A DNA stretch of 45,295 nt. It comes from Deltaproteobacteria bacterium. Its GTDB lineage: Bacteria > Desulfobacterota > Syntrophorhabdia > Syntrophorhabdales > Syntrophorhabdaceae. Positions 279 through 44,529 of this stretch are shown in pieces. Position numbers and translations under genes: made by a program. The stretch covers positions 1 through 45,295 of the forward strand of contig JAKPCK010000152.1 in NCBI GenBank assembly GCA_029553295.1. The letters are read 5' to 3'. The notes below the pieces were generated by a model. It had not been told where the DNA came from. It worked only from the letters and a program-made list of their open reading frames with translations, and did not search any database. The first letter of the stretch is position 1. The number at the start of each line of letters is the position of its first letter.

Positions 279-350
279 CACTAACGGCCAAGCTCACCAG
301 CCGCTATGGAGCGCAGCGAAACAGCGGTCAGGTGCAGAGGTTTGTTAGGT
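279..350 (-). repeat. Integron attC site 1
   Basis: A 72-base imperfect palindrome. On the minus strand it begins with ACCTAAC (344-350, matching the R'' consensus RYYYAAC) and ends with GTTAGTG (279-285, near the R' consensus GTTRRRY). The inner arms (CTGCACCTGACCGCT and its near complement AGCGGCTGGTGAG) pair with an unpaired extra base, as is usual for attC. It is about 63/72 identical by eye to the site at 6003-6074. Its orientation fits cassettes running leftward from the integrase. Confidence 0.8.
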
Positions 351-383: not shown

Positions 384-3300
384 CTATTTTTTCCTTATCT
401 CCTTAATGTACAATATCTTAATCCCCATCGGTAGCTTGGCTTCAACTCTATCACCTGCACGAGCACCCAAAAGGGCCTGCGCAATCGGTGTTCTGAAGTT
501 AATTGTTCCCCAATCAGGATTTGAGCTACCACATGTAATCATTACTTGTCGCTCTGAATCAGGGTTCTCATCGGATACATATACTATAGTATCACCTATT
601 TCAGCATATTCAGTTTTCGTTGCAGGTTCACCAATTGATTCACTAACCTTGCCTTCAAAATCTAATGCGAGTTTATTGTCTTCTGGTGCCAGTTTCTCAA
701 AATCCGAATTTTTCTCGTCTGGCGCTGATTTTTGTCCTCGCCTCGGTTGAATACCTCTCTCTTCAAGTATTAACCAAAGCTTCGAAAGCGCAGCATCCTT
801 ATCTGCGTAGAAAGCAGATTCTCGAACACGAAAAAACTCCCAGCCGCATCGTTCTAATTGTCGCTGGCGCTGCATATCCTCCTCGTAGCTTTCAAACCCA
901 TGCCATTGATCACCATCGCATTCAACTGCCAAGCGTGCATGGCCTCCTTCAACCACCAAGTCGATTCTTTTCCCAGCAACCGCAAACTGTGGAGTGACAA
1001 CAAATCCTTTTCTTAACAATTCCAGAGCAACATCTACCTCAAACCAACTTTCAAATGGAGTTGGCGATCTCACAACCTGACGATTATCCTGCTTAGCTCG
1101 GCGCTCAAGTTCATTCATATCGACCCCTGCTACTTGCTGAGGCTTCGAGTTCAAAAAAAATTCCAGCAGTCTTCGCCGTAGATCTTTTTCACTCAAATCC
1201 TCTAACTGAACCGAATAAAACAGCCACATCTGATCCCTAGCACGACTTGCAGCGACATTGAATCGTCTTTCATCCGCCGCTTTGGTAAGCGGACCAATTC
1301 TTTCATTGGTAGCAGCGACCATAGAAAGAAATATCACATCACGCTCATCGCCCTGGAAACTGTACGGATTTCCGCAAATAAGCCGCCGCTGCTCCATTTC
1401 TTCAGCTCCCAGTCGCTCCAGTAGTAAACTTTCAATGAGTCCCGCCTGTGCGTCACCTTGTAGCGCAATGGCCCCCATAGTCTTTTTCGCATAGCGGTCA
1501 TCAGAGCACAGTTCAATAATCTTTTCCACGATAGCTTGGGCCTCCGGGCGGTTGATTGCTCGATTATTACTACCCTCACGGTAGCCACCTTCCACAAAGA
1601 CGGGTTGAAGTGGAGGCAGTCGATCAGGACCATATTGTCGTAGTGGAATCAACGGCGTATCGGTATAGCAGAGATCGTTACTGAACCGGATAATCTCAGG
1701 CATACAGCGAAAGTGCTCACGCAGAGTGATTCGCCGAGTTCCATAGCGAAGCTTTCCGTGATCGAACAGGCTGCTCTCGACATCGAATGACGATTTGAAG
1801 CGGAAATCGTGGAGGAGTTCCTGCATCAGTCGATGGACGGCATCGCGGGGCAAACCCACGGCCTCCGGGCTGATCTGCTTGTCGTCACCAACAATCAATA
1901 TCTTCTTGCCAAGATAGAACAGAGGAAGTGCTTCCACACCGCATTGTGATGCCTCGTCAACAATGATGACATCGAACATTCCCGGGGCTGGGTCCACCGT
2001 GTCCCAGACCCGATGGAGCGGCATGACCCATGCCGGAACCGCCTCCCGACATTGATTGAGATGCTGTTGGGCATCCCGCCTGTGGCGTGGTGCATGTTTT
2101 CCTGTCCCTTTACCAAGTCGCTGCATGGACTGCTGCCAAGCTTCCATGTGGCGTCGATGATCTTCCTTGAGTCGGGAAAAGCAAAACGACCAGGCATGAA
2201 TCGAAGCAAGCTTCGAAATAGTCGAGTTGATTTCGTCTTCAATTTGTTTCGCGCGTTTAGTGAGGGCAGGGAAATCTTCTTTCCGAATATATTCTTCAAT
2301 CCAATATCGAGCTTGCGCCCAACGCCACGCATCTCCGATATGTTGAAGGCGTTCGTCCCAATATGGCTTGTGGCAAGTTCGCTTCAATTCATCTGTGAGA
2401 TTTGGCAGTAGGTTGTTCAATTCTGAAAGATACTCATCTACCTTTTGAAGACGCTGACGATGTTCCTTTAGCTCCTGAATCTGGCTCAATGCATTTGCGA
2501 ATCCATCCAAATTACGGTCACGAATAGCGTTCAGCAATTTGCGTGTCACGGAATGGGCTTTGCTGTTGGTGGCGATGGACGATATTGGAGACTCAATGCT
2601 TTGAATTTTTTCGGCGGCAAGCCGCTTCTGACGCCGGGCCTGTGCAAGTTGGCAAGAGGCGATTAACTTTTTAACCTGCAATTCATCAGCCCAGTTGGGT
2701 TCACTTATAGCGGAGTAGTGCCTTATGGCCTCCCGGCATTTCTCAATGAGATTTTCAAGCAACAATACCTCTTCAAGAGCGTTGCACATTGATTTAAGTG
2801 CTGTCAGTTGCAAAACATATGGTCCTGGCACCTTCTCAGCCCGTCCTGCCCAGAACCCCCAAGCCTTTTCAAACTCGATTCGAACATACAACGTATCGCA
2901 GAGAAGAGAGAAGTGTTCGACAGTAGAGCAAGGATGCCCGCCGATCCGCACAGTCTTGATTAAATAAATGCGTTCTTTCACCGTTTTGGGCCGGAAGAGC
3001 CACCAGCCCAGTTTCCCACCATACTCCATGTGCTCTTTTAACTTGCGGGCGTCTTCATATAGCGTCCTGATATTAGTAGTATCCGCAATTTCCATGCTAT
3101 TGTTGTCTGCGGTTTCAACGATGGGTTCAACTGATGTGATCACATGCTTCGTTACACTAACAAGTTCTAGCCAAAGGGCTGAGTTTCCGCACAAGACATC
3201 TCGAAGTGCATCAACCATCCAGGAATATGGTGACGACGTCAATCTTCTTCGTGCGTCAAAAAAATGGGAAAGAGCGGTGCGTATCTCTTCGATAACCTCG

Positions 3301-5165
3301 GGATTGTTTTTTGACAATAGGTCGGCGATTCGTTCATCAGCCCCCTTTTTTGCACAATGTTCTTCTTCATTCGCCTTCTCTTCATCCTGAATAAGTTTGG
3401 CAAAGTTCTCGGTAGATGGTACTTCTTCCGGCCATAGAAATTGTAATTCCTTGCGTTTTTCGTGTGTGAAATAGCGAAGGTCATTAAGAAAGCACCCTAA
3501 CTTGGCCACATCTATCGGGCAAGTTTTGTTTAGTGGTACCTTGTCGGTGAACCAATCATATTTCGCTCTGTCGCGGTTGACGGCTTCTGCGATTCGAGCT
3601 GCAGTGCCTCTATACGCACCGTCCGCAATGGGACGTGTATGGGTTTCGGACTCCCGAATATCGCGGAGTCGCCGATTAACCTTGGCTTGCTCCTCTCGCA
3701 GATTTCGGAGGCGTTCTTCTAGTTCCATCCGCTCTTGTGTGGCGCGCTCTTCGTTCCACTCATCATTCTTGCGGAGTATGCCACCAACGCTGGCTTCCAG
3801 AGAGCGACGTTCCTCGAGATCGCTACCAAGGAGGTTGATGCAGAGAGGACGTAATTCGGTTGGGATTAGGCCTTCAAGAACCTGCAAAGCACGCGGTGTT
3901 TTGGCTGTAATGAGGGTTCGATGTCCCGTGGCAAGCAGATGGGAAATCAGATTTGCGATGGTGTGAGACTTTCCCGTGCCTGGCGGCCCCTGCACAAGGA
4001 CACCGCTCGCTAATCGAATCTTGTCCACGATACGGCGTTGCTCTTCATTTGACGGCTTTGGAAAGAAGACCTCTTCATCGAATGTCGCGGTTTGTTCTTC
4101 CGGTCCATCACCGGATTCGCGATCAACTTTGTCGCCGATTTCGGCAAGATCCGCGAATTCATAAGGGATGTAATCACCCTTTTCGATCCGCTCTTTGATT
4201 CGTTTCAGGGTTTCTGTAAGACCCTTTAAAGAACGCTTTCGCAGGATTAACGCGGGGGCATATTCGACGACTGGTTTTTCTGAAGCACGGATATCTCCCT
4301 TCTGCAGAGTCTCGACATATTCGCCCTGGGGATTGATAGAATGAACCAAGGCTTGGAGCACTCCTTCAATGCAGTCTTTGTCCCAAGGATCATCTCCGGA
4401 ATCAGCCAATGAAGCCTTCGCGGTTTCCTCAGCGCGTATTGGTTGCTCCTCCACATCCAACATGTCTAGTTCAGGCCGGAGCTTTGCCCCTTCCGGGTGA
4501 GATCGGACGGTGAATTTCCCCAATCGCGCCTCAAACTCAAGCACAGCGTCAGCAACAATTAGGTGTCGACGAACACGTTGGCCAGAAGGCGTCTGCCAGG
4601 TAAGTAGTCCTAAACCGAGAATGAGTTCGTATTCCTCGCCAAGCCGGAGTTGTTCATAGTGGATGGCGAAGAGTTTGGAATATACTTTGTGCACGCTTTC
4701 CCAAACGTTATGATCTTCGACCCAGGGGAACCATCGTGCTTCGATATATCGGTCCCAGGCCTTTTGTATTGCAGGAAAATCTTCCAGATGTTCTGTTATT
4801 GAAATATATTCCGATTGTTCAGTTCCCTCCCGCCATTCAGGATTCTTGATCTTCTTGATTCTCTCGGGCAAAAGTTGTGGCAAGTCATTCTTGTTTCTCA
4901 GGGGTGATTTGTCGATCCAGCCTTCACATTGATCCGGTATAGTTGGCAAATCTGGCTCTCGTCGAGTCTGAATTTCAATCCAGATATCAGAATCATAGTC
5001 CTCGTCTCTGCCCCATGCTTGCGTGAAACAGCCCTTTTGCTGTGGAATATCAGAGAGCCAAAGAATTTTATCGTAGTCGTTGATCTCCCGCACCAGCTTG
5101 GTTCGTAAGGAAGCAAGCCGTATAAGATAGTCGACCAGATGAAAAGCTTTTTGTCTATCTGTCAT
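384..5165 (-). CDS. SF1 (UPF1-like) helicase fused to a Vsr-like nuclease and a GreA/GreB C-terminal domain
   Basis: A very large protein (1,593 residues from ATG at 5165). Residue numbers here count from an in-frame TTG at 5186, seven residues earlier. Motif I GPPGTGKS lies near 400, the DEAD-like box DEASQ near 1075 followed by GDDKQI, then EHFRCMPEI, FQGDERDVI and NVAASRARDQ (motif VI) near 1312: the COG1112/AAA_11-AAA_12 helicase set. A MTES_1575-type, Vsr-like nuclease domain follows (about 1380-1490) with RIDLVV and VECDGDQWH. The last 75 residues (IGDTIVYV, TPIAQALLGARAGDRVE) look like the FKBP-like C-terminal domain of GreA/GreB. Neither start has a good Shine-Dalgarno sequence; I prefer the ATG because MTDRQKAFHLVDYL looks like a natural N-terminus. 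It overlaps the truncated peptidase upstream by 11 bases. Such helicase-nuclease fusions are common in phage-defence islands, so a nucleic-acid defence role is likely but inferred. Confidence 0.85.
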   Translation of the reverse strand: MTDRQKAFHLVDYLIRLASLRTKLVREINDYDKILWLSDIPQQKGCFTQAWGRDEDYDSDIWIEIQTRREPDLPTIPDQCEGWIDKSPLRNKNDLPQLLPERIKKIKNPEWREGTEQSEYISITEHLEDFPAIQKAWDRYIEARWFPWVEDHNVWESVHKVYSKLFAIHYEQLRLGEEYELILGLGLLTWQTPSGQRVRRHLIVADAVLEFEARLGKFTVRSHPEGAKLRPELDMLDVEEQPIRAEETAKASLADSGDDPWDKDCIEGVLQALVHSINPQGEYVETLQKGDIRASEKPVVEYAPALILRKRSLKGLTETLKRIKERIEKGDYIPYEFADLAEIGDKVDRESGDGPEEQTATFDEEVFFPKPSNEEQRRIVDKIRLASGVLVQGPPGTGKSHTIANLISHLLATGHRTLITAKTPRALQVLEGLIPTELRPLCINLLGSDLEERRSLEASVGGILRKNDEWNEERATQERMELEERLRNLREEQAKVNRRLRDIRESETHTRPIADGAYRGTAARIAEAVNRDRAKYDWFTDKVPLNKTCPIDVAKLGCFLNDLRYFTHEKRKELQFLWPEEVPSTENFAKLIQDEEKANEEEHCAKKGADERIADLLSKNNPEVIEEIRTALSHFFDARRRLTSSPYSWMVDALRDVLCGNSALWLELVSVTKHVITSVEPIVETADNNSMEIADTTNIRTLYEDARKLKEHMEYGGKLGWWLFRPKTVKERIYLIKTVRIGGHPCSTVEHFSLLCDTLYVRIEFEKAWGFWAGRAEKVPGPYVLQLTALKSMCNALEEVLLLENLIEKCREAIRHYSAISEPNWADELQVKKLIASCQLAQARRQKRLAAEKIQSIESPISSIATNSKAHSVTRKLLNAIRDRNLDGFANALSQIQELKEHRQRLQKVDEYLSELNNLLPNLTDELKRTCHKPYWDERLQHIGDAWRWAQARYWIEEYIRKEDFPALTKRAKQIEDEINSTISKLASIHAWSFCFSRLKEDHRRHMEAWQQSMQRLGKGTGKHAPRHRRDAQQHLNQCREAVPAWVMPLHRVWDTVDPAPGMFDVIIVDEASQCGVEALPLFYLGKKILIVGDDKQISPEAVGLPRDAVHRLMQELLHDFRFKSSFDVESSLFDHGKLRYGTRRITLREHFRCMPEIIRFSNDLCYTDTPLIPLRQYGPDRLPPLQPVFVEGGYREGSNNRAINRPEAQAIVEKIIELCSDDRYAKKTMGAIALQGDAQAGLIESLLLERLGAEEMEQRRLICGNPYSFQGDERDVIFLSMVAATNERIGPLTKAADERRFNVAASRARDQMWLFYSVQLEDLSEKDLRRRLLEFFLNSKPQQVAGVDMNELERRAKQDNRQVVRSPTPFESWFEVDVALELLRKGFVVTPQFAVAGKRIDLVVEGGHARLAVECDGDQWHGFESYEEDMQRQRQLERCGWEFFRVRESAFYADKDAALSKLWLILEERGIQPRRGQKSAPDEKNSDFEKLAPEDNKLALDFEGKVSESIGEPATKTEYAEIGDTIVYVSDENPDSERQVMITCGSSNPDWGTINFRTPIAQALLGARAGDRVEAKLPMGIKILYIKEIRKK

Positions 5166-5868
5166 ATTTTTCAGAATATTGTCCAAATTGTTCTTTATCT
5201 TCTTGGTTATTTAGCCCTAACGGCTTGAGCTTCATTTGCGCCGCGCCCGGCACCGCCGCCGCAATGCCTTGCTCTTGCGATTCGAGATAGGCTCGCAATG
5301 TATTCGCCGCATCCTCCGCCACGGGCTCGACCAGAAAGGTTCGACACAGATCCACCGTATAGCCACGTGCAATCGGTGCGAGATGCACCTGAACCACGTC
5401 TCCGGGCGCTATCTCCTTCGTTGAGGCCGGTCCGTGCGCCATGGCAGAACGCCATCCTGACGCTACATAGGTCGCCGATACGACCCGGGCGCCAGGCAGG
5501 ATATGAGATGTGAATATCTCATAAAGCGCTTCATCGAAAAAGTTCTTTTCAACCGCAATGGTCGCTTGTTCCAGTTCAAGTTCGCTTAGCACATCGCGAA
5601 AGCCATGGAATAGCTCCTCCTCACTGCGAAAGGCTCGAATCTCGTTAGCAGCGGAAGCTTTACGAACGCTCGCCAAATCGCACTCCGGCACCGCGACGAT
5701 GCATTGCAACTTGCGGGTGAGCAGCGCCAGGGCACAGGGCCGCTCGTCGCCGGTCAGATAGGCGAGATTGGTTGGCTTCATCAGGAACAAAGCGTCGATG
5801 CCTTCTTGCTCCATCAGAGCCACGGCGCGTTTCCAGCGAAACAGGTAGTCGAATGTTTCATCGCTCAT
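5155..5868 (-). pseudogene. M24 (aminopeptidase P/creatinase-like) peptidase, 3'-truncated
   Basis: 237 residues starting at ATG 5868, preceded by GGAGGG. The N-terminal creatinase-type domain is complete (WKRAVALMEQEGIDALFLMKPTNLAYLTGDERP), and the start of the pita-bread catalytic domain is present: AHGPAS, I-PGDVVQVHL, GYTVDLCRT (the Asp is the first metal ligand). The protein then ends about 130-150 residues early in an unrelated tail, so the remaining metal ligands (Asp, His, Glu, Glu) are lost and peptidase activity is not expected. The gene is strikingly GC-rich compared with the helicase next to it, which suggests a different source. The break near 5225 is where the helicase upstream region was joined. 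It could still be translated and couple translation into the helicase gene. Confidence 0.7.
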
Positions 5869-5995
5869 GATACAACCCTCCTTTTGGTAGTTGGTAGCGG
5901 GTGAATCGCACCGCGTATTGCCCGCCATCACGGGTACCGAATACGTCTCGATCAGCTCGGTGATTGTGGCGATGTATCTCAATGACTTGGTTCAT
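5858..5995 (-). CDS. 45-residue hypothetical protein at the start of the large cassette
   Basis: Starts at ATG 5995 with GGAGG eight or so bases upstream, immediately after the attC2 R' box (6003-6009), which is the normal position for the first gene of a cassette. It runs MNQVIEIHRHNHRADRDVF and on, and ends at TGA 5858-5860, overlapping the M24 start by about 11 bases, so the two are probably translationally coupled. I do not recognise the family. It has many charged and His/Arg residues and no membrane segment. It might be a small real protein, or the front of a gene that was later joined to the M24 fragment. Confidence 0.4.
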   Translation of the reverse strand: MNQVIEIHRHNHRADRDVFGTRDGGQYAVRFTRYQLPKGGLYHER

Positions 5996-6002
5996 CACGG
6001 CC

Positions 6003-6074
6003 TCCTAACTGCCAAGCTCACCTGCCGCTATGGAGCGCAGCGGAACAGCGGTCAGGTGCAGCGCCTTGTTAGGC
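6003..6074 (-). repeat. Integron attC site 2
   Basis: On the minus strand it starts with GCCTAAC (6068-6074, perfect RYYYAAC) and ends with GTTAGGA (6003-6009, close to GTTRRRY). The internal arms CTGCACCTGACCGCT and AGCGGCAGGTGAG pair with one extrahelical base, and CGCTCCATAGCG lies at the centre. The stop codon of the glutamine amidotransferase gene (6069-6071) sits inside the R'' box, as is common for cassette genes. Nearly the same sequence as the site at 279-350. Confidence 0.88.
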
Positions 6075-6830
6075 ACCATAAACACACTGCCCATCCTTGA
6101 AAACACGCATGTAGCCTGGCGTTAGATTATTCCACTTTTCGTCCGTCAAAGGGCGTGTCGCAATCACAAAACCTCTCTGATCTCGCCTCTTTTCCTCAGC
6201 CAAATCAACCTCCCAATCCTCATCCCTTAGAGATACCTTACTAAATGGGGCAGTTCGCTCAGTCATGCAAAGACCGTTATAGCCATCTCTGTCGCGGTAA
6301 CTGTAAAGATGTTCCCCTTCTGAAAAAAGAATATTCATGGTGCCATATTTGTTGAATTCTTGAAAAACAGCCTCAATCTTATCAAACTCTGTGAAGGTGA
6401 TTTTTTCGTTAGACAATACCGTGAGTAAAGCACAGAGCAGATATTCGGAATCCGTTTGACCTACAGGGTGAAACTTCAATAAAGACTCTGCCATAACCGG
6501 GTCCAGGGTGCCGTTGTGGGCAAGTGCTACTTCACGGGAACGAAAAACACGTATAAAAGGATGGGTATTTTGAAGGGTATGTTTTCCTCGACTTGCATAA
6601 CGCACATGGCCAATAAATATCTTGCTCTCAAACAGTTCGTAATCCCTAAGAAATGTGGCCAGTTTACTGCTGGAAGACTTAATTGGTTCCTTAAATACTT
6701 GACAGGCTCGTCCGTCAAATCTGGCTATTCCCCATCCGTGCGGGTTATGTTCACCGCGATGACGGAACCCTCTGAAAGAGAGCGAGCACCGAACAGGCTT
6801 ATTAAAATTGAGGCCAAGCAACTCACACAA
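6069..6830 (-). CDS. Class II glutamine amidotransferase (YafJ-like)
   Basis: 253 residues. The start is TTG at 6828-6830, which places Cys at position 2, the N-terminal nucleophile needed by this Ntn-hydrolase family once Met is removed; AAGGAGGAGG lies upstream. Motifs seen include RHRGEHNPHGWGIA, IGHVRYASRG, TLQNTHPF, ALAHNGTLD and TDSEYLL, the usual glutaminase-pocket residues of stand-alone YafJ/EgtC-type proteins. There is no synthetase domain, so the acceptor of the ammonia (or of a gamma-glutamyl amide hydrolysis reaction) is unknown. It is a single-gene integron cassette, from the attC at 6853-6909 to that at 6003-6074, and the gene fills almost the whole cassette. Confidence 0.85.
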   Translation of the reverse strand: MCELLGLNFNKPVRCSLSFRGFRHRGEHNPHGWGIARFDGRACQVFKEPIKSSSSKLATFLRDYELFESKIFIGHVRYASRGKHTLQNTHPFIRVFRSREVALAHNGTLDPVMAESLLKFHPVGQTDSEYLLCALLTVLSNEKITFTEFDKIEAVFQEFNKYGTMNILFSEGEHLYSYRDRDGYNGLCMTERTAPFSKVSLRDEDWEVDLAEEKRRDQRGFVIATRPLTDEKWNNLTPGYMRVFKDGQCVYGA

Positions 6831-6852
6831 ATGCTCTATCCTCCTCCTTGCT

Positions 6853-6909
6853 GTCTAACGCCAACATCACCGGGAGCGGTATGCGATCCGGTGCATGTAT
6901 TTGTTGGCA
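6853..6909 (-). repeat. Integron attC site 3
   Basis: A 57-base imperfect palindrome between the toxin and amidotransferase genes. On the minus strand it begins TGCCAAC (6903-6909, degenerate R'') and ends GTTAGAC (6853-6859, a perfect GTTRRRY R'). The arms CATGCACCGG and CCGGTGATG pair with an unpaired G. Its internal sequence is unlike the other two sites, which is normal for attC. Confidence 0.72.
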
Positions 6910-6912
6910 GGT

Positions 6913-7248
6913 TTACAATTGCAAACCCGTAAGTCTTCTTAGAAGAATGTCTTCAATGTTCTGTCGAGAATCCAGCACTGACAGGACGTAGACTCTATTC
7001 TCATAAACCCTGTATACGATCCGCCAAGGCGTAATGATCAGTTCACGGTAATGTGTAATTCCCTGTTCCAGAAGCTCAGGAACTATACGACCTCTATCAG
7101 GGAAAGATCGGAGGTCTGATGCTTTTTCTTTAATTCTTTTGAATATCTCGTAGGCTTTATGAGGATTGTCATCGGCGATGTACTGAACGATTGCAATAAG
7201 ATCATTCTCCGAGGTTTCAGACCACCGCACGTCATAAAGTTTTTTCAT
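6913..7248 (-). CDS. RelE/ParE-family toxin
   Basis: 111 residues, MKKLYDVRWSETSENDLIAI, with the family core IVQYIADDNPHKA and the C-terminal block YRELIITPWRIVYRVYENR. RelE/ParE toxins are small cytoplasmic proteins that either cut mRNA at the ribosome or poison gyrase; the sequence alone does not tell me which. The start overlaps the antitoxin stop (ATGA at 7245-7248), so the pair is translationally coupled. It is the first cassette next to the integrase, and its 3' end lies directly before the attC at 6853-6909. Toxin-antitoxin cassettes are known to stabilise sedentary integron arrays. Confidence 0.88.
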   Translation of the reverse strand: MKKLYDVRWSETSENDLIAIVQYIADDNPHKAYEIFKRIKEKASDLRSFPDRGRIVPELLEQGITHYRELIITPWRIVYRVYENRVYVLSVLDSRQNIEDILLRRLTGLQL

Positions 7249-7526
7249 TTCATCTTTTCTTTTAGAATGGCCTCAATGTTTGCAAATACATCTTCCTGGG
7301 GCTTTGTTTTTCCCCGCCTCACGTCTTCTTCACCCTGTGAAAGGAGCTTCAAAATCCCTATAGCATTTCTCATATTCTCGTAGCTTAGAGGGTCCTGGAG
7401 CACAGCCCTGGGTTCCCCATTTTGGGTGATGATTACGGGACGATGGGTTTCGTTTATTTGTTTCAACAAATCAGGAGCCTTTGATTTTAGATAAGTAATA
7501 GGTTTAATGTCCTTCGAAATATTCAT
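7245..7526 (-). CDS. Phd/YefM-family antitoxin
   Basis: 93 residues. The N-terminal half (ITYLKSKAPDLLKQINETHRPVIITQNGEPRAVL) is the Phd/YefM DNA-binding fold. The charged C-terminal half (GEEDVRRGKTKPQEDVFANIEAILKEKMK) would wrap the toxin. It starts at ATG 7526 with a strong ribosome site (GGAGGTGATGGT) and lies under a good promoter of its own (7548-7575), so it does not need the integron Pc promoter. It probably represses this promoter together with the toxin; no clear operator palindrome was identified. Confidence 0.88.
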   Translation of the reverse strand: MNISKDIKPITYLKSKAPDLLKQINETHRPVIITQNGEPRAVLQDPLSYENMRNAIGILKLLSQGEEDVRRGKTKPQEDVFANIEAILKEKMK

Positions 7527-7547
7527 ACCATCACCTCCGGTCTATAT

Positions 7548-7575
7548 ATGATACCACATAAAGACTGGTTGTCAA
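7548..7575 (-). promoter_or_regulatory. Sigma-70 promoter of the toxin-antitoxin cassette
   Basis: Minus strand: TTGACA at 7570-7575, a 16-base spacer, and TATCAT at 7548-7553, followed by a ribosome site and the antitoxin ATG at 7526. Confidence 0.7.
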
Positions 7576-7686
7576 CTTATTTTTTGTTTTTTGCTGCCAA
7601 CATTATTTTTTATGTCGCATACGTCTTTTTGTTATGATTTTAGGGGAGATTGGAGGTTAAGTCAACATAAATCTTAAACCTATGAT

Positions 7687-7693
7687 GTTTAAC
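7687..7693 (-). other. Candidate attI recombination core
   Basis: Minus-strand GTTAAAC fits GTTRRRY exactly. It lies 72 bases before the integrase start, between integrase and first cassette, where attI belongs. This is a seven-base match in AT-rich DNA, so it is a suggestion only; GTTGGCA at 7595-7601 is a poorer alternative. Confidence 0.3.
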
Positions 7694-7745
7694 CTACTGA
7701 AAAATCAGGAAATTAATTTTCTGTTTAATATTATATCGCATGCTG

Positions 7746-7751
7746 TATAAT
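7746..7751 (+). promoter_or_regulatory. Candidate -10 box of the integrase gene
   Basis: TATAAT lies 13 bases before the integrase ATG (7765). No good -35 element is seen at the right distance and no LexA-type box is evident. There is no Shine-Dalgarno sequence. Confidence 0.35.
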
Positions 7752-7764
7752 TTATGAATTAATT

Positions 7765-8911
7765 ATGTTAGATGCGTTTAAACAGTTTTTGAGCACAAAA
7801 GAAAGACTCCCTGAGAAGAATCTCCACTATTATGTCAAATGGGTTTCTGATTGCTATCGCTATTTCGACAAACCAGAGACCGAGTTGTTGACTAACGATC
7901 AAAATTCTAAATTCCTCAATCATTTAGCCAAAAAGCACGAGGACTGGCAGGTTCAGCAGGCAGATAGGGCATTGAGATTATATGGTTATTTTCTCACCCG
8001 TATAAAGAGAAATGCAGACGGGAGTTCAGGAGATATGCCAGATAATTGGAAAAAAATCGAGGAAAAAACGCGGGAAGCCCTAAGGCTTCGCCACAGATCA
8101 TACAGCACTGAAAAAACCTATATATTATGGCTCCGCCAGTTTCAGGGATTTATTAATGGGAAGCAGCCTCTATATTCAGAGGGCAAGGATATTCAGGATT
8201 TTCTAAGCTATCTTGCTGTTGTGAAAAAGGTTTCTGCCTCAACCCAGAATCAGGTGCTCAATGCTATTGTTTTTTCTATCGTTATGTATTGGATAAAGAT
8301 ATCTAAGGCGAAATCAGCGCAGTAAGGGCAAGACAAAATCGGAGGCCGCCTGTTGTTTTGACGGTAAATGAAATAGAAAAGATATTTTCAGAGATGTCCG
8401 GTGTCAACGAGTTAATGGCGAGGCTCATTTATGGATGCGGCTTAAGATTGCAGGAGTGTTTGCAGCTAAGGATAAAGGATGTTGACTTCGAGCAGAGTCT
8501 TGTTATTATTCATTCAGGCAAAGGCGACAAAGATAGACGAACTATGCTGCCTGAAGCTGTAAGAGAAGAACTTATTAAACATATCAATGAAATCAGAGTT
8601 ATCTATGAAAAGATAGAAATGCAAGGTTAAATGGCATTCAACTGCCCGGAGCATTAGAGAGGAAGTATCCGAATGCCGGCAAGGAATGGAGATGGTTTTG
8701 GTTATTTCCATCGCAATCGCTTTCGATGGATCCTCGATCTGATGTTATAAGGCGTCATCATGTTTATCATGATGTACTACAGAGAGCATTTAGGAATGCT
8801 GTCATAAAAGCAGGGATAACAAAACAGGCTTCTGTTCATACATTGAGGCACAGTTTTGCCGCGCACCTGCTTGAAGATGGATATGACATCAGAACTATTC
8901 AGGAATTGTTA
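7765..8911 (+). pseudogene. intI: Integron integrase (IntI-type tyrosine recombinase), inactivated
   Basis: Three consecutive reading frames together resemble IntI. Part one (7765 to about 8270) holds the SAM-like domain with LRLRHRSYSTEKTYILWLRQF and SASTQNQVLNAIVF. A one-base loss in the T-run near 8270 shifts the frame, and the restored frame meets TAA right after YRYVLDKDI. Part two (to about 8612) contains the catalytic Arg box LIYGCGLRLQECLQLRIKDVDFEQ. A second one-base loss near 8612 shifts to part three, with [18 protein letters not shown], the extra patch unique to integron integrases, and [25 protein letters not shown]. Similarity then stops at 8911; the expected GH...Y ending with the catalytic Tyr is absent. 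Transcription is away from the cassettes, as usual. The enzyme cannot be functional, so cassettes can no longer be moved by it. Confidence 0.93.
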
Positions 8912-9049
8912 GTAAGGACTTGGGCCTGTGGCTTCTGGAAAAGTTATAAAATCATAAAGACTGTTCTCATCTTCAAAGGTCTCAATTTTATTACCCTTTG
9001 ACCCCAAAATATGCTATATTGCTATTCAAAAAATAGTTAAGGTGGTCAG
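8912..9049. other. Gap between integrase remnant and thi4
   Basis: The integrase frame stays open to 9001 but without similarity. TTGACC at 8998-9003 could be a -35 box, but no good -10 box follows at a normal distance. No TPP riboswitch core was found. A ribosome site (AAGGTGG) precedes the thi4 ATG. Confidence 0.4.
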
Positions 9050-9823
9050 ATGATAGATGAGAGGATAGTTACAAAGGCGATTATTGAGAGGTTTTCAGAG
9101 AAACTCATATCGAACCTTGAGCTTGATGTGGCTGTGTGCGGTGCAGGACCTTCAGGCCTTGTGGCAGCATATTTTCTTGCCAAGGCAGGTTTAAAGGTAG
9201 CTGTCTTTGAGAGAAAGCTCTCCATAGGCGGTGGTATGTGGGGCGGTGGTATGATGTTTAATGAGATAGTGGTCCAGGAGGAAAGCAAACACATACTGGA
9301 TATGTTGAACATCAAGACAACCCCTTATATCCCGGGTTATTACACTGTCGACTCTGTGGAGGCGGTATCAGGGATATGCTTCAATGCAGTAAAGGCAGGG
9401 GCAAAGATATTTAACCTAATAAGCATAGAGGACCTTGTAGTGAGACAGGATAAGGTTGCCGGGGTGGTCATCAACTGGACAGCTGTAGAGATGGCCGGAC
9501 TCCATGTAGACCCTTTAACGATTATGTCAAGATGTGTTGTTGACTCAACAGGTCACCCCATAGAGGTTGTAAGGGTCCTGGAGAAAAAGATGGATATAAG
9601 ACTCAACACACCCACTGGAAAGATAGAGGGTGAAAAATCCATGTGGGCCGATGTGGCAGAGACAAAGACCCTGGAGAATACAAAAGAGGTTTTTCCCGGT
9701 CTATTTGTGGCAGGCATGAGCGCAAATGCGACCTTTGGCTCATACAGGATGGGTCCTATCTTTGGCGGTATGCTCCTGTCCGGGAAAAAGGTCTCTGAGC
9801 TCATTATAGAAAAGTTAAGATGA
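9050..9823 (+). CDS. thi4: Sulfide-dependent ADP-thiazole synthase Thi4
   Basis: 257 residues, a normal length for archaeal/bacterial Thi4. It makes the thiazole half of thiamine from NAD and glycine. The Rossmann motif [29 protein letters not shown] (26-54), [14 protein letters not shown], and the C-terminal [25 protein letters not shown] are present. The position equal to the sulfur-donating Cys205 of yeast Thi4 is His152 (GLHVDPLT), which marks the non-suicidal class that takes sulfide from solution and suits a sulfidic, anoxic cell. ATG 9050 follows AAGGTGG. The stop overlaps the next start by four bases (ATGA), so thi4, thiDN and thiC form an operon. Confidence 0.93.
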
Positions 9824-11148
9824 AGAAGATACTTACCATAGCAGGGTTTGACCCTTCAAACGGTGCAGGGATTACAAAGGATATAGAGATATTTCAGTCA
9901 AGGGGCATACATGGTATCTCAGCGCCTACCTGTATAGTAAATCAGGACCCCGATGGTGTATCCGGGGTCTACCCTATACCTGTTGAGGAGTTCTCGGAGA
10001 TGCTTCAGGTTGCAAAACGTATGGGCATAGATGCCATTAAGATCGGTGTGCTTTTCAATGAGGACTATGTAAAGACTGTTGCCTCCTTTATAAAATCCTA
10101 CAATAGACAAATCCCTATTGTCCTCGATACTGTTTTTTCATCTAAAAACAGAAAAGAACTCCTTACAAAAAAAGGCATAGAGGCATTGAAGGAAACCCTC
10201 TTGCCCCTTGTAACTGTTGTGACACCAAATATAGATGAGGCAGCTACCCTAACAGGTATAGATATTCAAGACACAGGGTCCATGGAGGGGGCAGCAAAAG
10301 CCATATATGGCCTTGGGCCAAAATCTGTAGTTGTCAAGGGCGGACATATAGAGGGTCAACCTGTTGATCTGCTTTTTGATGGAAAAGAGGCAACAGCCTA
10401 TACAAGAATGAGGTTAGATAAGGAGATCCACGGGACAGGCTGTGTGTTCTCATCGCTTTTAACATCCTATCTCTGCCTTGGATACCCTATTCAAGAGGCG
10501 TTTTATGGGTCTGAATCACAGCTCAACGGGCTCCTAAATGGTAGCTACAGGATTACCCCTACAGGTTACCACTACATCTCCTCTGGTATCTTAGATTCTT
10601 ATGATAGAGACAGGTGGGAGGTAATACAGATTCTCAGACAGGCTGCCATGCTCATTGAGATGATGAACCCCATAGAGTTTGTGCCTGCTGTCCAGATGAA
10701 TATGGGGTTTGCATTGGAGAATGCAATGGCTATAGGAGATGTGGCTGCCTTTCCCGGGAGGATATCTGTCCACAATGAGAGGATATACATTAAAGGTGAG
10801 CCCTGTTTTGGCTCTTCAAGCCATGTAGCCCGCCTTATACTGGGTATGATGAGACGCTTTCCCTTTTTAAGGTCCTGTGCCAACCTAAGGTTTGATAAGG
10901 CTACAATAGAGAAGGCAAAAAAAACAGGCATGTCTGTTGTGTTTTTTGATAGAAAGAAAGAGCCGGAGGCACTTAAGGAGATAGAGGGCAAAAGCCTGGA
11001 CTTTCTATCAGAGCATGCCCTATCAGGGATAGACAGGCCACCGGATATTATATATGATGAGGGGGACATGGGAAAAGAGCCTATGATAAGGCTTTTTGGT
11101 AAAACACCCCTTGAAGTTATTAAAAAGATGGAGATGATAAGACCATGA
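9820..11148 (+). CDS. thiDN: Bifunctional HMP-phosphate kinase / thiamine-phosphate synthase (ThiD-ThiN)
   Basis: 442 residues. Residues 1-260 are Thi[38 protein letters not shown] and the anion hole HGTGCVFSS, for phosphorylating HMP and HMP-P. Residues about 270-435 are ThiN ([44 protein letters not shown]), which joins HMP-PP and thiazole phosphate and replaces ThiE. The ThiD-ThiN fusion is typical of archaea and some anaerobic bacteria. It is coupled at both ends by ATGA overlaps to thi4 and thiC. Confidence 0.92.
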
Positions 11149-12445: not shown

Positions 12446-13666
12446 ATGAAAAACCCCCTTTCCTGGCAACTGACAATCCATACGGTTACATCCCTCACAA
12501 GCCAGATAAAACGCCTCATCAATAATCAGTTCAGGGATATTTTAGTAGAGGGCGAGATATCCAACTTCAAGCTATATCCATCAGGACATGTCTATTTTAC
12601 CCTAAAGGATGACCAGTCTATAATAAAGGCGGTTATGTTCAATTTTTACGGGAGATACCCTGATGATATGTTCAGAGACGGTGTATCTGTCATATGTAAA
12701 GGCAGGGTAGATGTTTATGAAAAAAGGGGTGAATACAGGCTCATTGTGGATGCCCTTGAGGTAAGGGGCGTAGGTCTCCTTCAGCTTAAATTCCAGATGC
12801 TAAAAGAGAAGCTTCTGAAAGAAGGCATATTCGATGCAGGAAAAAAGAAGACCCTGCCCCTTCTTCCACAGAGGATCGGGATTATAACCTCCCCTGCAGG
12901 GGCAGCAATAAGGGATATGTTAAAGATAATATTCCAGAGATACCCCAATATGTCTGTTATTATCTATCCTGTAAAGGTTCAGGGTGATGATGCATGTTAT
13001 GAGATAGCAAAGGCCATAGAATACCTCAATATGACGAGGGAGGTGGATGTAATCATCCTTGGTCGAGGGGGTGGCTCCCTGGAGGACTTGGCACCCTTCA
13101 ATGAGGAGGTGGTGGCAAGGGCAATATTTGCATCACTTATACCTGTTGTATCCGGTGTGGGTCATGAGATAGACTTTACCATAGCAGACTTTGCCGCTGA
13201 TGTGAGGGCACCTACGCCAACTGCAGCAGCAGGCATTGCTGTACCTGATAAAAGAGAACTATGTGATTTGATAGACCAGATGCGGGAGGATCTTATCCAG
13301 TCCATGATAGATATACTGGAGAGGAAGAGGTTTTCTCTATATCAGTCTATGATGGAATTAAAAGATAGGCGGGATTTTATCGTCTCATACAGGATGTATC
13401 TCGATGAGCTCGTGAACAATATGTTTCACAACCTCTCTGTGTATATGTTGAATAAAAGACAGGCATTTCAGGGGCTTGTCCAGAGGCTATACGACCTGAA
13501 CCCTGACAATATCCTCAAAAGGGGATATAGCATTGCCCAGAAAGTAAAGACAAAAGAGGTCATATACGATAACAGACAGGTATCCCAGGGCGAGGATATC
13601 TCTTTGAGGTTATACAGGGGTGTTTTAGGCTGTGAGGTAAAAGAGATTATAAATAGAGAGACCTAA
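12446..13666 (+). CDS. xseA: Exodeoxyribonuclease VII large subunit
   Basis: 406 residues from ATG 12446; an upstream in-frame start at 12368 would overlap thiC and is unlikely. It has an N-terminal OB fold (about 10-110: LVEGEISNFKLYPSGHVYFTLKDD, VICKGRVDVYEKRGEYRLIV) and the catalytic domain RIGIITSPAGAAIRDML, VIILGRGGGSLEDLAPFNEE, VVSGVGHEIDFTIADFAADVRAPTPTAAA. The helical C-terminus ends with NPDNILKRGYSI. The enzyme degrades single-stranded DNA in repair. The small subunit gene xseB, often next to it, is not seen here. Confidence 0.95.
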   Translation: MKNPLSWQLTIHTVTSLTSQIKRLINNQFRDILVEGEISNFKLYPSGHVYFTLKDDQSIIKAVMFNFYGRYPDDMFRDGVSVICKGRVDVYEKRGEYRLIVDALEVRGVGLLQLKFQMLKEKLLKEGIFDAGKKKTLPLLPQRIGIITSPAGAAIRDMLKIIFQRYPNMSVIIYPVKVQGDDACYEIAKAIEYLNMTREVDVIILGRGGGSLEDLAPFNEEVVARAIFASLIPVVSGVGHEIDFTIADFAADVRAPTPTAAAGIAVPDKRELCDLIDQMREDLIQSMIDILERKRFSLYQSMMELKDRRDFIVSYRMYLDELVNNMFHNLSVYMLNKRQAFQGLVQRLYDLNPDNILKRGYSIAQKVKTKEVIYDNRQVSQGEDISLRLYRGVLGCEVKEIINRET

Positions 13667-42030: not shown

Positions 42031-44529
42031 CTATATAGAGGAGGGGTCATATTCCTCTCGACGCATTACCGTATCATACAGACCAATACCTTCTCCTTCG
42101 CGTCGATTGATACCGGTATAGACCAGGCTGGGGTCTTCATACCGCTTGAACTTGTACACAGCGTCGTTCATGAGAGCACTGTTGAACACACCCAGACTGA
42201 CGAGGAGTTCAAAGTCTTTCACCGTCAACCCCGTTACTTTCTTGAACAAGCCGGGTTCCAGTTGCGTGATCACATCCCGAAGGGTTCTTTCCCGGTAGTC
42301 TGTCAAATACATAAAGATGGGAACGCGGGTGGCGAATTTGATGAGTTTCTCCTGTATTTGTTTTCGCTTGCTCTTGAACTCTTTTTCTTCCTCGGTCAGT
42401 TCACGTTTTTCTTTGGTGGTAAGCTCTCTGTCGTTAGCTTCTTTCTTGAGCTTTTTCACAGCTTCGGATTTATTGATAATGGTCTCGATGTCCTGATTGA
42501 GGTTGCGGAACCCTTCGATGCTCATCAGCGCCTGCATCGCCTGTTCATTGCTCATCAGCCGCCGCAAGGTGTCGTTGTCCACGTTCACCAGCAGAGCGCT
42601 CTCCCAGCGGCGGGCCAGCAGCGTTGCGGTGGTGCCGCTCATAGCCATGTCGAGAACACCGGCGGCGTCGATCTGTTTCATGGAACTGCCGTCATAGGCT
42701 AGCACCGGCAGGAAATGGATGAATTCCTCCACCTTCTTTTCCGGGTCATCCTCGTTGACATTCAAGCGGCAACTGTAATCGGCGATCTGCCGCAAGGCCC
42801 GATCCGGCGCAAAGTCGAAGACGTAGCACTCTTCTTTTAAAATCAGCTCCTCATTGGGCGAGGTCCCATCGGGGTTCTTGATCGTCCACGGATTCTGCAC
42901 GCGAAATGCGGCCTGGAAATATGTCTCCGGGCTGGAAGAATTCCGTAACATAAAGATGCCTGTCCAGGGCCGCACCGTAACCCCGGTCGTTAGCTTGCCG
43001 CAGGTCAAGGTGATGGTTTTGGTCTTCAGGGGATCGCCCATTGCCTCCAAAACCGGCGGCAGCGCATGGACCCCAATGCCTGCCGCGGCGCCTGCGGCTA
43101 CTATGACTTTGTAATCGTGGTAAAACTTGTTTTGCCTCTTGGCCAAGAGATTTCGCATGGCATAACAGGAAGCAACGCTCGGCAGAAACCACAGGGTATG
43201 CGAAAGCACACCCAAGAGCCGCACATCCGAATAGGGCAGCGGCGGCCTCTGCGCTCCCATCCTTAAATTGTCCAAACTTGTGGGGAGGTCGGCGCCGCGA
43301 ATCAGATCCAGCCATTTCTGAACCTCATCTTCATACTTGAAACGTGCCTGATCACCTACCCCCTCTGCCGAGAAGAATACATTCAGGTCGAATTCGTTGA
43401 ACTCTCCCTTCATGGCCACTTCTCGAATGGCATCCGGCAGTTGATATGTCATGAGCACCATGCGCGGCAGGGCGGCGTAGGGATTATTCGCGCCACGCCA
43501 CTCTTCCTTGGCTTTTTGTTCATCTGAATATGTCCAGTTGTAAATCTGCTCTTCGATGAACTCGCCTGTGGCAATGGCTCGGAAGGGGGTGCCGGAAAGG
43601 TACAGATAATGGTCAGAGGTAATGGGCAGAATATCCTCGTCAAAGTAGTCAATGGCTTCACCTTCAGCTGCTTTTCTTTCCTCTTCGTCCTCTGCTTCAA
43701 AAAGGTCCTTTGCCTTTTCCCGCCAGGCGCCGAAGTGGTATTCATCGAAGATCACACAGTCCCAGTTTGTGGTGTGGACCCATTCGTTTTTGGTTTTGAT
43801 GCCGCCGGTGCTCGGGTTACGGCCCAGATAATCCTGAAATGAGCCGAAGCAGACGATGGGCTTCTGCTTGTCCGCATCTTCATAGCTCAGCCCGCCTGGC
43901 TTTATGAACTGCCATCCCCGAAAGTCCACATGGCAGCGCAAATCCTCTTCCCAAGCGCTTTGCACTGCCGGCTTGAAGGTGAGCACCAGTACCTTTTTCC
44001 AGCCCATGAGTCTGGCCAGTTGATAAGCGGCAAAGGTCTTTCCGAAGCGCATCTTGCAGTTCCACAGGAAATGGGGCGTCTTATCGTTTTCTCGGCGGTA
44101 GTTCTTGAAGTAGGCAATGGTCTTTTCCACCGCGGCCTCCTGCTCCGGCCGCATTTTGAAATTAAGCGAACGCTGCTCCTCAAAGAGCTGCCCTTCCCGG
44201 ACGGCGTTAATGGCAGACTTTACCTGCTCCACCGTACAGCGGAACCACTCCCCACCAGCCTGCTGGATGCCGTTGATACGCAGCATCTGGTGCACGTCAT
44301 GGTCGGTAAAGACCGTGCCATCACTTCGAATGGCTGTCTCTTCTAAAACGATGCGGTAGGGCAGTTCCCCCGGCCTGAGCGTCTGATACTGCTGCGCCAC
44401 CCGCTCCTGCACGCTCTTGGTGGTGTAGCCGATTTTGAGCAGTCCCGCATACTGAGGATGGGTATCCTCGTAGGCGTAGATTTTTGGTTCGACCCCGGGG
44501 CGGGGAGGAAAGAATTCTTGATTAATCAT
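42031..44529 (-). CDS. GIY-YIG (T5orf172-type) nuclease fused to a DEAD-like helicase
   Basis: 832 residues. Residues 16-100 are a T5orf172/MUG113-type GIY-YIG domain (YAYEDTHPQYAGLLKIGYTTKSVQERVAQQY, with GGEWFR at 92-97 holding the likely catalytic Glu). An SF2 helicase follows: motif I NCKMRFGKT (157-165), motif II FDEYH (261-265), SGTPFRA, then LTCGKLTTGVTVRPW and the arginine-containing AAFRVQNPW. The tail (about 640-832) has a coiled, charged part (KEKRELTEEEKEFKSKRKQI). This fits a restriction-like helicase-nuclease of defence islands. It overlaps the DUF1016 gene by eight bases. Base use is more GC-rich than in the core genes, which suggests transfer. Confidence 0.87.
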   Translation of the reverse strand: MINQEFFPPRPGVEPKIYAYEDTHPQYAGLLKIGYTTKSVQERVAQQYQTLRPGELPYRIVLEETAIRSDGTVFTDHDVHQMLRINGIQQAGGEWFRCTVEQVKSAINAVREGQLFEEQRSLNFKMRPEQEAAVEKTIAYFKNYRRENDKTPHFLWNCKMRFGKTFAAYQLARLMGWKKVLVLTFKPAVQSAWEEDLRCHVDFRGWQFIKPGGLSYEDADKQKPIVCFGSFQDYLGRNPSTGGIKTKNEWVHTTNWDCVIFDEYHFGAWREKAKDLFEAEDEEERKAAEGEAIDYFDEDILPITSDHYLYLSGTPFRAIATGEFIEEQIYNWTYSDEQKAKEEWRGANNPYAALPRMVLMTYQLPDAIREVAMKGEFNEFDLNVFFSAEGVGDQARFKYEDEVQKWLDLIRGADLPTSLDNLRMGAQRPPLPYSDVRLLGVLSHTLWFLPSVASCYAMRNLLAKRQNKFYHDYKVIVAAGAAAGIGVHALPPVLEAMGDPLKTKTITLTCGKLTTGVTVRPWTGIFMLRNSSSPETYFQAAFRVQNPWTIKNPDGTSPNEELILKEECYVFDFAPDRALRQIADYSCRLNVNEDDPEKKVEEFIHFLPVLAYDGSSMKQIDAAGVLDMAMSGTTATLLARRWESALLVNVDNDTLRRLMSNEQAMQALMSIEGFRNLNQDIETIINKSEAVKKLKKEANDRELTTKEKRELTEEEKEFKSKRKQIQEKLIKFATRVPIFMYLTDYRERTLRDVITQLEPGLFKKVTGLTVKDFELLVSLGVFNSALMNDAVYKFKRYEDPSLVYTGINRREGEGIGLYDTVMRREEYDPSSI

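Follow-up and report, generated by a model that had tools for sequence, protein, structure and literature searches.

What could a protein do that carries a superfamily 1 (SF1) helicase, a Vsr-like nuclease and the C-terminal domain of the Gre factors on one chain, and in what setting is its gene found? This question was raised by a 45,295-nucleotide stretch of contig JAKPCK010000152.1 (assembly GCA_029553295.1), from a deltaproteobacterium of the family Syntrophorhabdaceae, which we refer to as the window. The gene is a single intact minus-strand open reading frame (ORF) that encodes 1593 amino acids, with an ATG at 5165 and a stop codon at 384-386 (Table 1); a TTG at 5186 would be an alternative start, giving a product of 1600 amino acids. 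Pfam placed the SF1 helicase (AAA_11, E 1e-14; AAA_12, E 6e-16), the nuclease (MTES_1575, E 1.6e-27) and the GreA/GreB C-terminal domain (E 4.8e-8, 33.3 bits against a cut-off of 26.9) in this one frame, which bears out the fusion described in an earlier sequence-only reading of the DNA. The combination is far beyond chance, and the genome of the window holds one copy of the gene. Two other accounts of the region were rejected: the plus strand of 384-5165 contains many stops, the gene lying on the opposite strand, and a fusion by frameshift or misassembly does not fit the single open frame and the identical joint in ten relatives. The solved helicases nearest in sequence are Sen1, UPF1, SMUBP-2 and Dna2, which place the motor in the UPF1-like branch. 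Between Walker A and motif II (DEAS, residues 1070-1073, shortly ahead of AAA_12) there is a long insert. In a nine-row alignment, the helicase motif residues and nuclease residues E1376, D1402, E1415 and D1417 were invariant; therefore, both enzymes look active.

Table 1. Features of the helicase-nuclease-Gre gene and its surroundings in the window; the three attC sites also served to build the attC model, and their E values are not independent of it.
Feature	Position	Strand	Basis
Helicase-nuclease-Gre gene	387..5165	-	ORF + Pfam
SF1 helicase RecA1 part: AAA_11, residues 372-523; Walker A 393-400	3597..4052	-	Pfam, alignment
SF1 helicase C-terminal part: AAA_12, residues 1130-1316	1218..1778	-	Pfam, alignment
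MTES_1575 / Vsr-like nuclease, residues 1375-1464	774..1043	-	Pfam, alignment
Nuclease-to-tail linker, residues 1465-1521	603..773	-	C-terminus reading, AlphaFold2 model
GreA/GreB C-terminal (FKBP-like) domain, residues 1522-1591, exchangeable tail	393..602	-	Pfam, AlphaFold2, Foldseek
attC site directly after the helicase-nuclease-Gre gene, about 34 nt past its stop	279..350	-	69-bp direct repeat; attC model E 3e-16
Truncated M24/creatinase-family ORF, within the helicase cassette interval	5155..5982	-	ORF annotation
attC site of the preceding cassette	6003..6074	-	Repeat + attC model
Class II glutamine amidotransferase (GATase_4) cassette gene	6069..6830	-	ORF annotation
Third, shorter attC site	6853..6909	-	attC model E 1e-8
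ParE toxin cassette gene	6913..7248	-	ORF annotation
Phd/YefM antitoxin cassette gene	7245..7526	-	ORF annotation
Decayed integron-integrase-like tyrosine recombinase, three frames (7765-8325, 8358-8630, 8726-9001)	7765..9001	+	

The identity of the tail is not a matter of one Pfam match. A profile of ten tails matched the PDB sequences of E. coli GreA (1grj, E 1e-5) and GreB (2p4v, E 0.006). When an AlphaFold2 model of the tail (mean pLDDT 80.7, pTM 0.64, from a 10-row alignment) was searched with Foldseek, the top matches were GreA, Gfh1, a GreA/B homologue, GreB and Rnk (E 2.4e-7 to 7.5e-4, probability 1.00), and VIA Z ran from 12.7 to 8.1 for this group. HelD followed the Gre group (Foldseek E 0.014, VIA Z 7.7), and FKBPs stood behind the Gre matches at a VIA Z of about 7. 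The tail is thus a Gre-factor, FKBP-like C-terminal domain by both family and fold, as the sequence-only reading had supposed when it proposed structure prediction as a check. A chance Gre match was rejected in view of the independent profile, the fold and the recurrence of the domain in relatives. No Gre N-terminal family, such as would represent the coiled coil with acidic tip of GreA, appeared among the best 25 Pfam families, and the nuclease and linker precede the tail instead. Therefore, judging from its sequence, the tail could dock on RNA polymerase (RNAP) but could not trigger transcript cleavage.

The Gre-family motifs TPIA.A and P.G are conserved across phyla in these tails, and TPIA, which aligns with the SP motif of GreA, is present in all ten Gre-tail rows. 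In the Mycobacterium tuberculosis Gre factor (MtbGre), the S127E change abolishes RNAP binding, according to PMC3132773; from the mutagenic primer printed there, we read S127 as the serine of the TPIA-equivalent motif. A second report states that the S121P change in E. coli GreA lost RNAP binding (PMC7527559), and the window protein has Asn at the site of this serine, which counts against docking. Pairwise dN/dS of the Gre tails was 0.14-0.50 in the 17 unsaturated pairs out of 45, which shows, at the level of substitution rates, that purifying selection acts on the Gre tail. A separate canonical GreA, a single one, is encoded on contig C100 of the same genome. Recruitment to RNAP is the most natural reading of the Gre tail.

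How constant is the tail within the family? We defined close relatives as distinct loci, given here by their L numbers, whose core shares 55% identity or more with that of the window, and 32 of them had a readable C-terminus. Eleven carry a Gre tail (the window, L003, L010, L015, L017, L019, L020, L055, L057, L063 and L072), 17 a winged-helix tail (L004, L006, L007, L008, L009, L011, L012, L013, L014, L018, L025, L026, L027, L029, L073 and, in broken frames, L005 and L022) and four neither (L002, L016, L021 and L054). L010 and L072 were both counted although their cores are identical, L053 was left out as it shares a contig with L008, and L024, L065 and L067 are fragments that end before the tail and lie outside the 32. 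A tail-less reading of L005 and L022 was rejected, the winged-helix tail being present in another frame. Two distant relatives, L035 and L069, also have a C-terminal Gre domain above the Pfam cut-off, on cores only about 30-34% identical. The second tail type, scanned in L006, matched no Pfam family; its AlphaFold2 model (pLDDT 89.1) resembles cullin WHB, PadR and Z-alpha (best Foldseek E 0.007), and it is predicted to be a winged helix. Since the outgroup L023 (46% identical) also has a winged-helix tail, this tail is probably the older state. As side observations, the Bacillaceae loci L030-L034, L042, L044 and L045 have a different C-terminal domain at the tail site, with a PAWFT-like motif at the end and, in L030, which was scanned, no Pfam family above cut-off; DUF3320-like tails occur in other relatives.

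On a core-only tree of 32 rows, of which 10 with Gre and 15 with winged-helix tails were scored, the tail changes eight times or more, a number that recombination inside the core, as in the mosaic of L003 and L072, can inflate, and a single Gre clade was rejected (p-AU 2.9e-37). The 25 rows of this count omit L063 (308 aa), L005 (labelled 'none' at that stage), L022 (partial), the four loci with neither tail and the three fragments; the trees are 'quick' trees, and in a second tree the tail labels were set by script patterns and are coarse, some distant rows being labelled 'oth'. The exchange is clearest between L003 (Gre) and L073 (winged helix), which are 91% identical in DNA over L003 156-4734, have no DNA similarity through the tail and resume 74% identity from 5165 onward; the identity of their proteins per 100-residue block is 74-99% over the core but falls to 12-15% in the final two. 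L003 and L072, both Gre-tailed, are near identical at their ends and 56-89% identical in much of the middle. These comparisons show, at the level of aligned DNA and protein, that the tail is a swappable module on one core, and it looks like an exchangeable aiming part.

FKBP-like folds double as general protein-binding domains, and the tail might accordingly serve general protein or self-interaction with no binding to RNAP; the FKBPs are its structural neighbours at the Z given above, and the sister proteins manage without a Gre tail. We consider this improbable, since Gre, Gfh1 and Rnk rank above the FKBPs by both Foldseek E value and Z, the TPIA.A and P.G motifs are kept across phyla, and Gre, not an FKBP family, is what Pfam and NCBIfam report.

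The setting of the gene in the window is that of an integron. Two copies of a 69-bp repeat, at 281-349 and 6005-6073, are 91% identical and attC-shaped, and attC sites bound the helicase-nuclease-Gre gene. The genes between the sites (ParE/Phd, the amidotransferase, the truncated M24 ORF and the helicase-nuclease) share one direction. Of the adjacent integrase, decayed in three frames, the first piece matches TIGR02249 (58 bits over 70 aa) and is 48% identical over 84 aa to the integrase of L006, the second matches Phage_integrase, and the third was assigned from position and sequence alone. Together, the flanking sites and the integrase remnant show the gene, on the evidence of the DNA itself, to be an integron cassette. 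Near the 3' end of the M24 ORF, directly upstream of the helicase gene, lies an R'-like CGTTAGGG (about 5214-5221), which suggests that an attC once stood there. At this junction (about 5213-5221), two cassettes may have fused, and the ORF would have been stripped of its 3' half and of most of its attC. The neighbouring cassettes of the window hold a toxin-antitoxin pair and an amidotransferase and no recognised defence system, which counts against a defence role. Elsewhere in the genome, attC-like sites at C112:2552-2621 and C135:2745-2801 may be additional members of the cassette array. A possible second defence gene (42031-44529, minus strand) lies at the opposite end of the window and encodes an 832-aa protein with T5orf172 and ResIII helicase domains.

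Relatives of the gene were found in similar and in other mobile settings. An attC covariance model was built from nine sites (three from the window, four from L006 and two from L013) and applied to the window plus 72 loci; it replaced an earlier scan by pattern and fold, rejected because it found one of the three window sites and gave 0.6 chance matches per shuffled window. An attC lies just after the gene, at E 0.0015 or better, in the window, L005, L006, L009, L011, L012, L013, L022, L026, L027 and L029, and L063 has a weak match (E 0.0048) about 35 nt past the stop, resembling the window. Nine of these 12 loci were not used in building the model, and only the window and L063 among the 12 have a Gre tail. 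In L006, an attC array and an integron integrase that is intact (465.9 bits, above the cut-off of 265) accompany the gene, whose TAA stop codon lies inside the attC core site (12816-12821). By coordinates, the stop also falls within the attC start in the winged-helix-tailed L009, L011, L012, L013, L026, L027 and L029; thus, the winged-helix tail ends flush with the recombination site. The Gre-tailed L074 (genome G150) has an integron-integrase remnant immediately upstream. L076 (G101:C1, 6811-11602), on a 2-Mb contig, is a Gre-tailed copy split into three reading frames and, to judge by these, is decaying.

Phages carry the gene as well. On the IMG/VR viral contig of L072, the gene (5971-10764, plus strand) is surrounded by phage head, portal and neck genes of the opposite orientation and has an excisionase-like gene upstream. 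L003, on a Synergistaceae metagenome-assembled genome (MAG) contig, is colinear with L072 over 5.8 kb at 85% DNA identity, and its copy is therefore probably phage-borne too. IMG/VR viral contigs yielded four loci, one of them Gre-tailed; the 441 plasmid records, all below 60% identity, and the five phage records, all weak matches, are remote relatives. A type I methyltransferase gene follows the distant relative L035, and an HsdR-N-like ORF lies near L017; no recognisable defence neighbour was found for L019, L020 and L015 in ORF lists read by eye. In the phylum of the window, 19/395 genomes (its own included), in 19 genera, have a relative at E 1e-50 or better; the one listed genome of the same genus has none, nor have 11 of the 12 other same-family genomes listed. 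Close relatives are labelled Desulfomicrobiaceae, Synergistaceae, Thermodesulfovibrio, Acidobacteria, Planctomycetota, Stenoxybacter, Chlorobaculum, Limisphaerales and an archaeon; many of these records are MAGs, and an individual label could stem from a binning error. This patchy spread is the pattern of a mobile gene.

The best scores of the window protein against defence models were 205 bits with PDC-S37, 138 with MkoC and 103 with Hhe. PDC-S37 (PADLOC PDLC05009), a candidate single-gene system, was the best match and spans the helicase and nuclease; its 204.8 bits come from a model given without a cut-off that covers the protein in part (best stretch 709-1358 of 1550). PDC-S37 was likewise the best match, again in part, for each of three relatives, and no description of PDC-S37 by name was found in the open-licence literature. 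The anti-phage proteins ProA and Hhe gave significant partial matches over the helicase and nuclease, at 203.5 bits for NCBIfam ProA (NF058533) and 128.4 bits for NCBIfam Hhe, which fall far short of the equivalog cut-offs of 1500 and 2000; DUF4011, considered for the comparison with Hhe, was not among the best 25 Pfam families of the window protein. We know of no Gre tail in Hhe or ProA. Anti-phage genes are reportedly carried as integron cassettes (Darracq 2025, Kieffer 2025), and the window gene is cassette-borne likewise.

The core resembles CnuH of the CoCoNuT type III-B systems, which are predicted to act on RNA. CnuH is described in PMC11090510 as a UPF1-like SF1 helicase that has a large insert behind Walker A and to which a Vsr-like nuclease is fused; the window protein has the same three features. 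CnuH lies in an operon with McrB/McrC-type CnuB and CnuC, whereas the window gene is a cassette of its own, and the winged helix-turn-helix domain of III-B CnuH is N-terminal, in contrast to the C-terminal winged-helix or Gre domain here. The one visible flank holds the M24 fragment, GATase_4, ParE and Phd, and no McrBC; the contig ends 386 bases past the other end of the gene. For the tail, PMC8195603 describes predicted immune effectors, the TPR-GreA/B-C-PIN conflict proteins, in which Gre-C is proposed to engage virus-hijacked RNAP; unlike the window protein, they have a PIN nuclease, no SF1 helicase and Gre-C between TPR and PIN. In HelD (PMC7749165), an N-terminal region resembles GreA/B, and this Gre-like domain brings a UvrD-like motor to the RNAP secondary channel. 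However, HelD is described there as an RNAP recycling factor with an N-terminal Gre-like part that has a coiled coil, and without a nuclease, whereas the Gre domain of the window protein is C-terminal, its motor is UPF1-like and a nuclease is present. No paper describing the helicase-nuclease-Gre fusion was found in the open-licence literature, although one may exist. Each half has a precedent; an interchangeable Gre or winged-helix tail joined to one integron-carried core did not appear in that literature.

Overall, with HelD and the Gre-C conflict proteins as precedents and with the matches to defence models, our preferred reading of the Gre form is a helicase-nuclease directed against viruses, which its tail takes to transcription complexes. 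We infer the defence role, the binding to RNAP, the substrate and the order of events in the following putative mechanism. The protein would be a mobile, stand-alone, single-gene antiviral effector. By analogy with helicase-nuclease defence proteins, its UPF1-like SF1 motor would travel along nucleic acid and feed or license the fused Vsr-like nuclease. The Gre tail would dock on the beta' rim helices, where the RNAP secondary channel opens, so that the docked enzyme is delivered to transcribing, backtracked or stalled complexes and could attack a heavily transcribed invader through its transcript, R-loop or template. In sister proteins, the predicted winged-helix tail may deliver the same core via nucleic acid instead. 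The tail would then serve to target or license the enzyme, as an exchangeable module that recombination shuffles and that travels in integron cassettes and phages. That the mobile gene is an antiviral weapon is probable; that this one gene encodes a mobile antiviral helicase-nuclease and that the Gre form is brought to transcription complexes is a tentative proposal, to which we give nearly an even chance. The full picture of a transcription-targeted immune helicase-nuclease, which destroys an invader's DNA or transcript because it is transcribed, has an interchangeable aim (Gre or winged helix) and owes the spread of its core across many phyla to integrons and phages, is possible and clearly short of an even chance.

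The sequence-only reading had proposed an effector recruited to transcription complexes, and the survey of the architecture that it called for found the Gre tail in 10 further close and two distant relatives. The proposal holds in part: the Gre-C fold, the mobile setting, the invariant TPIA and the purifying selection agree with it, but with 17/32 close relatives bearing another tail and 4/32 none, docking is not essential to the core, and recruitment to RNAP cannot define the family. The same reading had set defence against a housekeeping role, and the integron, phage and restriction loci, together with the patchy presence, favour defence.

Phages often modify or inhibit host RNAP. The Gre-C tail might therefore act as a decoy or sensor, with the loss or gain of contact with RNAP activating the helicase-nuclease; patchy, mobile and reshuffled tails would suit such arms-race sensing as well as delivery, and the tail lacks the catalytic coiled coil. 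We regard such guarding as unlikely: no observation separates it from delivery, and the winged-helix tail lacks an evident host partner that it could guard. It is rather more doubtful that the protein is a weapon between elements, with which integrons or phages exclude competing phages or plasmids without serving the host, as the antisense gene among the head genes of L072 and the flanking region common to L003 and L073 might suggest; most close relatives lie off viral contigs, with only the four loci in IMG/VR, and this use would be compatible with the antiviral reading and differ in whom it serves. A host enzyme for transcription-coupled repair or R-loop clearing, working in the manner of Mfd, UvrD or Sen1 and not in defence, would suit a Sen1/UPF1-like motor joined to an RNAP-docking fold and a nuclease type that takes its name from a repair enzyme, but is very unlikely given the patchiness down to genus and family, the copies in integrons, phage structural regions and restriction loci, and the related models, which are defence models.

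The antiviral reading, with delivery through RNAP, thus remains the one that we prefer. If it is true, bacteria would have here an immune enzyme that finds its target by way of the transcription machinery, and a swapped tail on a near-identical body would set the aim. L003 and L073 provide a clean natural experiment, with 91%-identical core DNA and wholly different tails; therefore, the part that decides the target is directly testable. At about 4.8 kb, the gene enlarges the range of defence-like cargo moved by integrons, and it links integron, phage and restriction-locus copies as one family.
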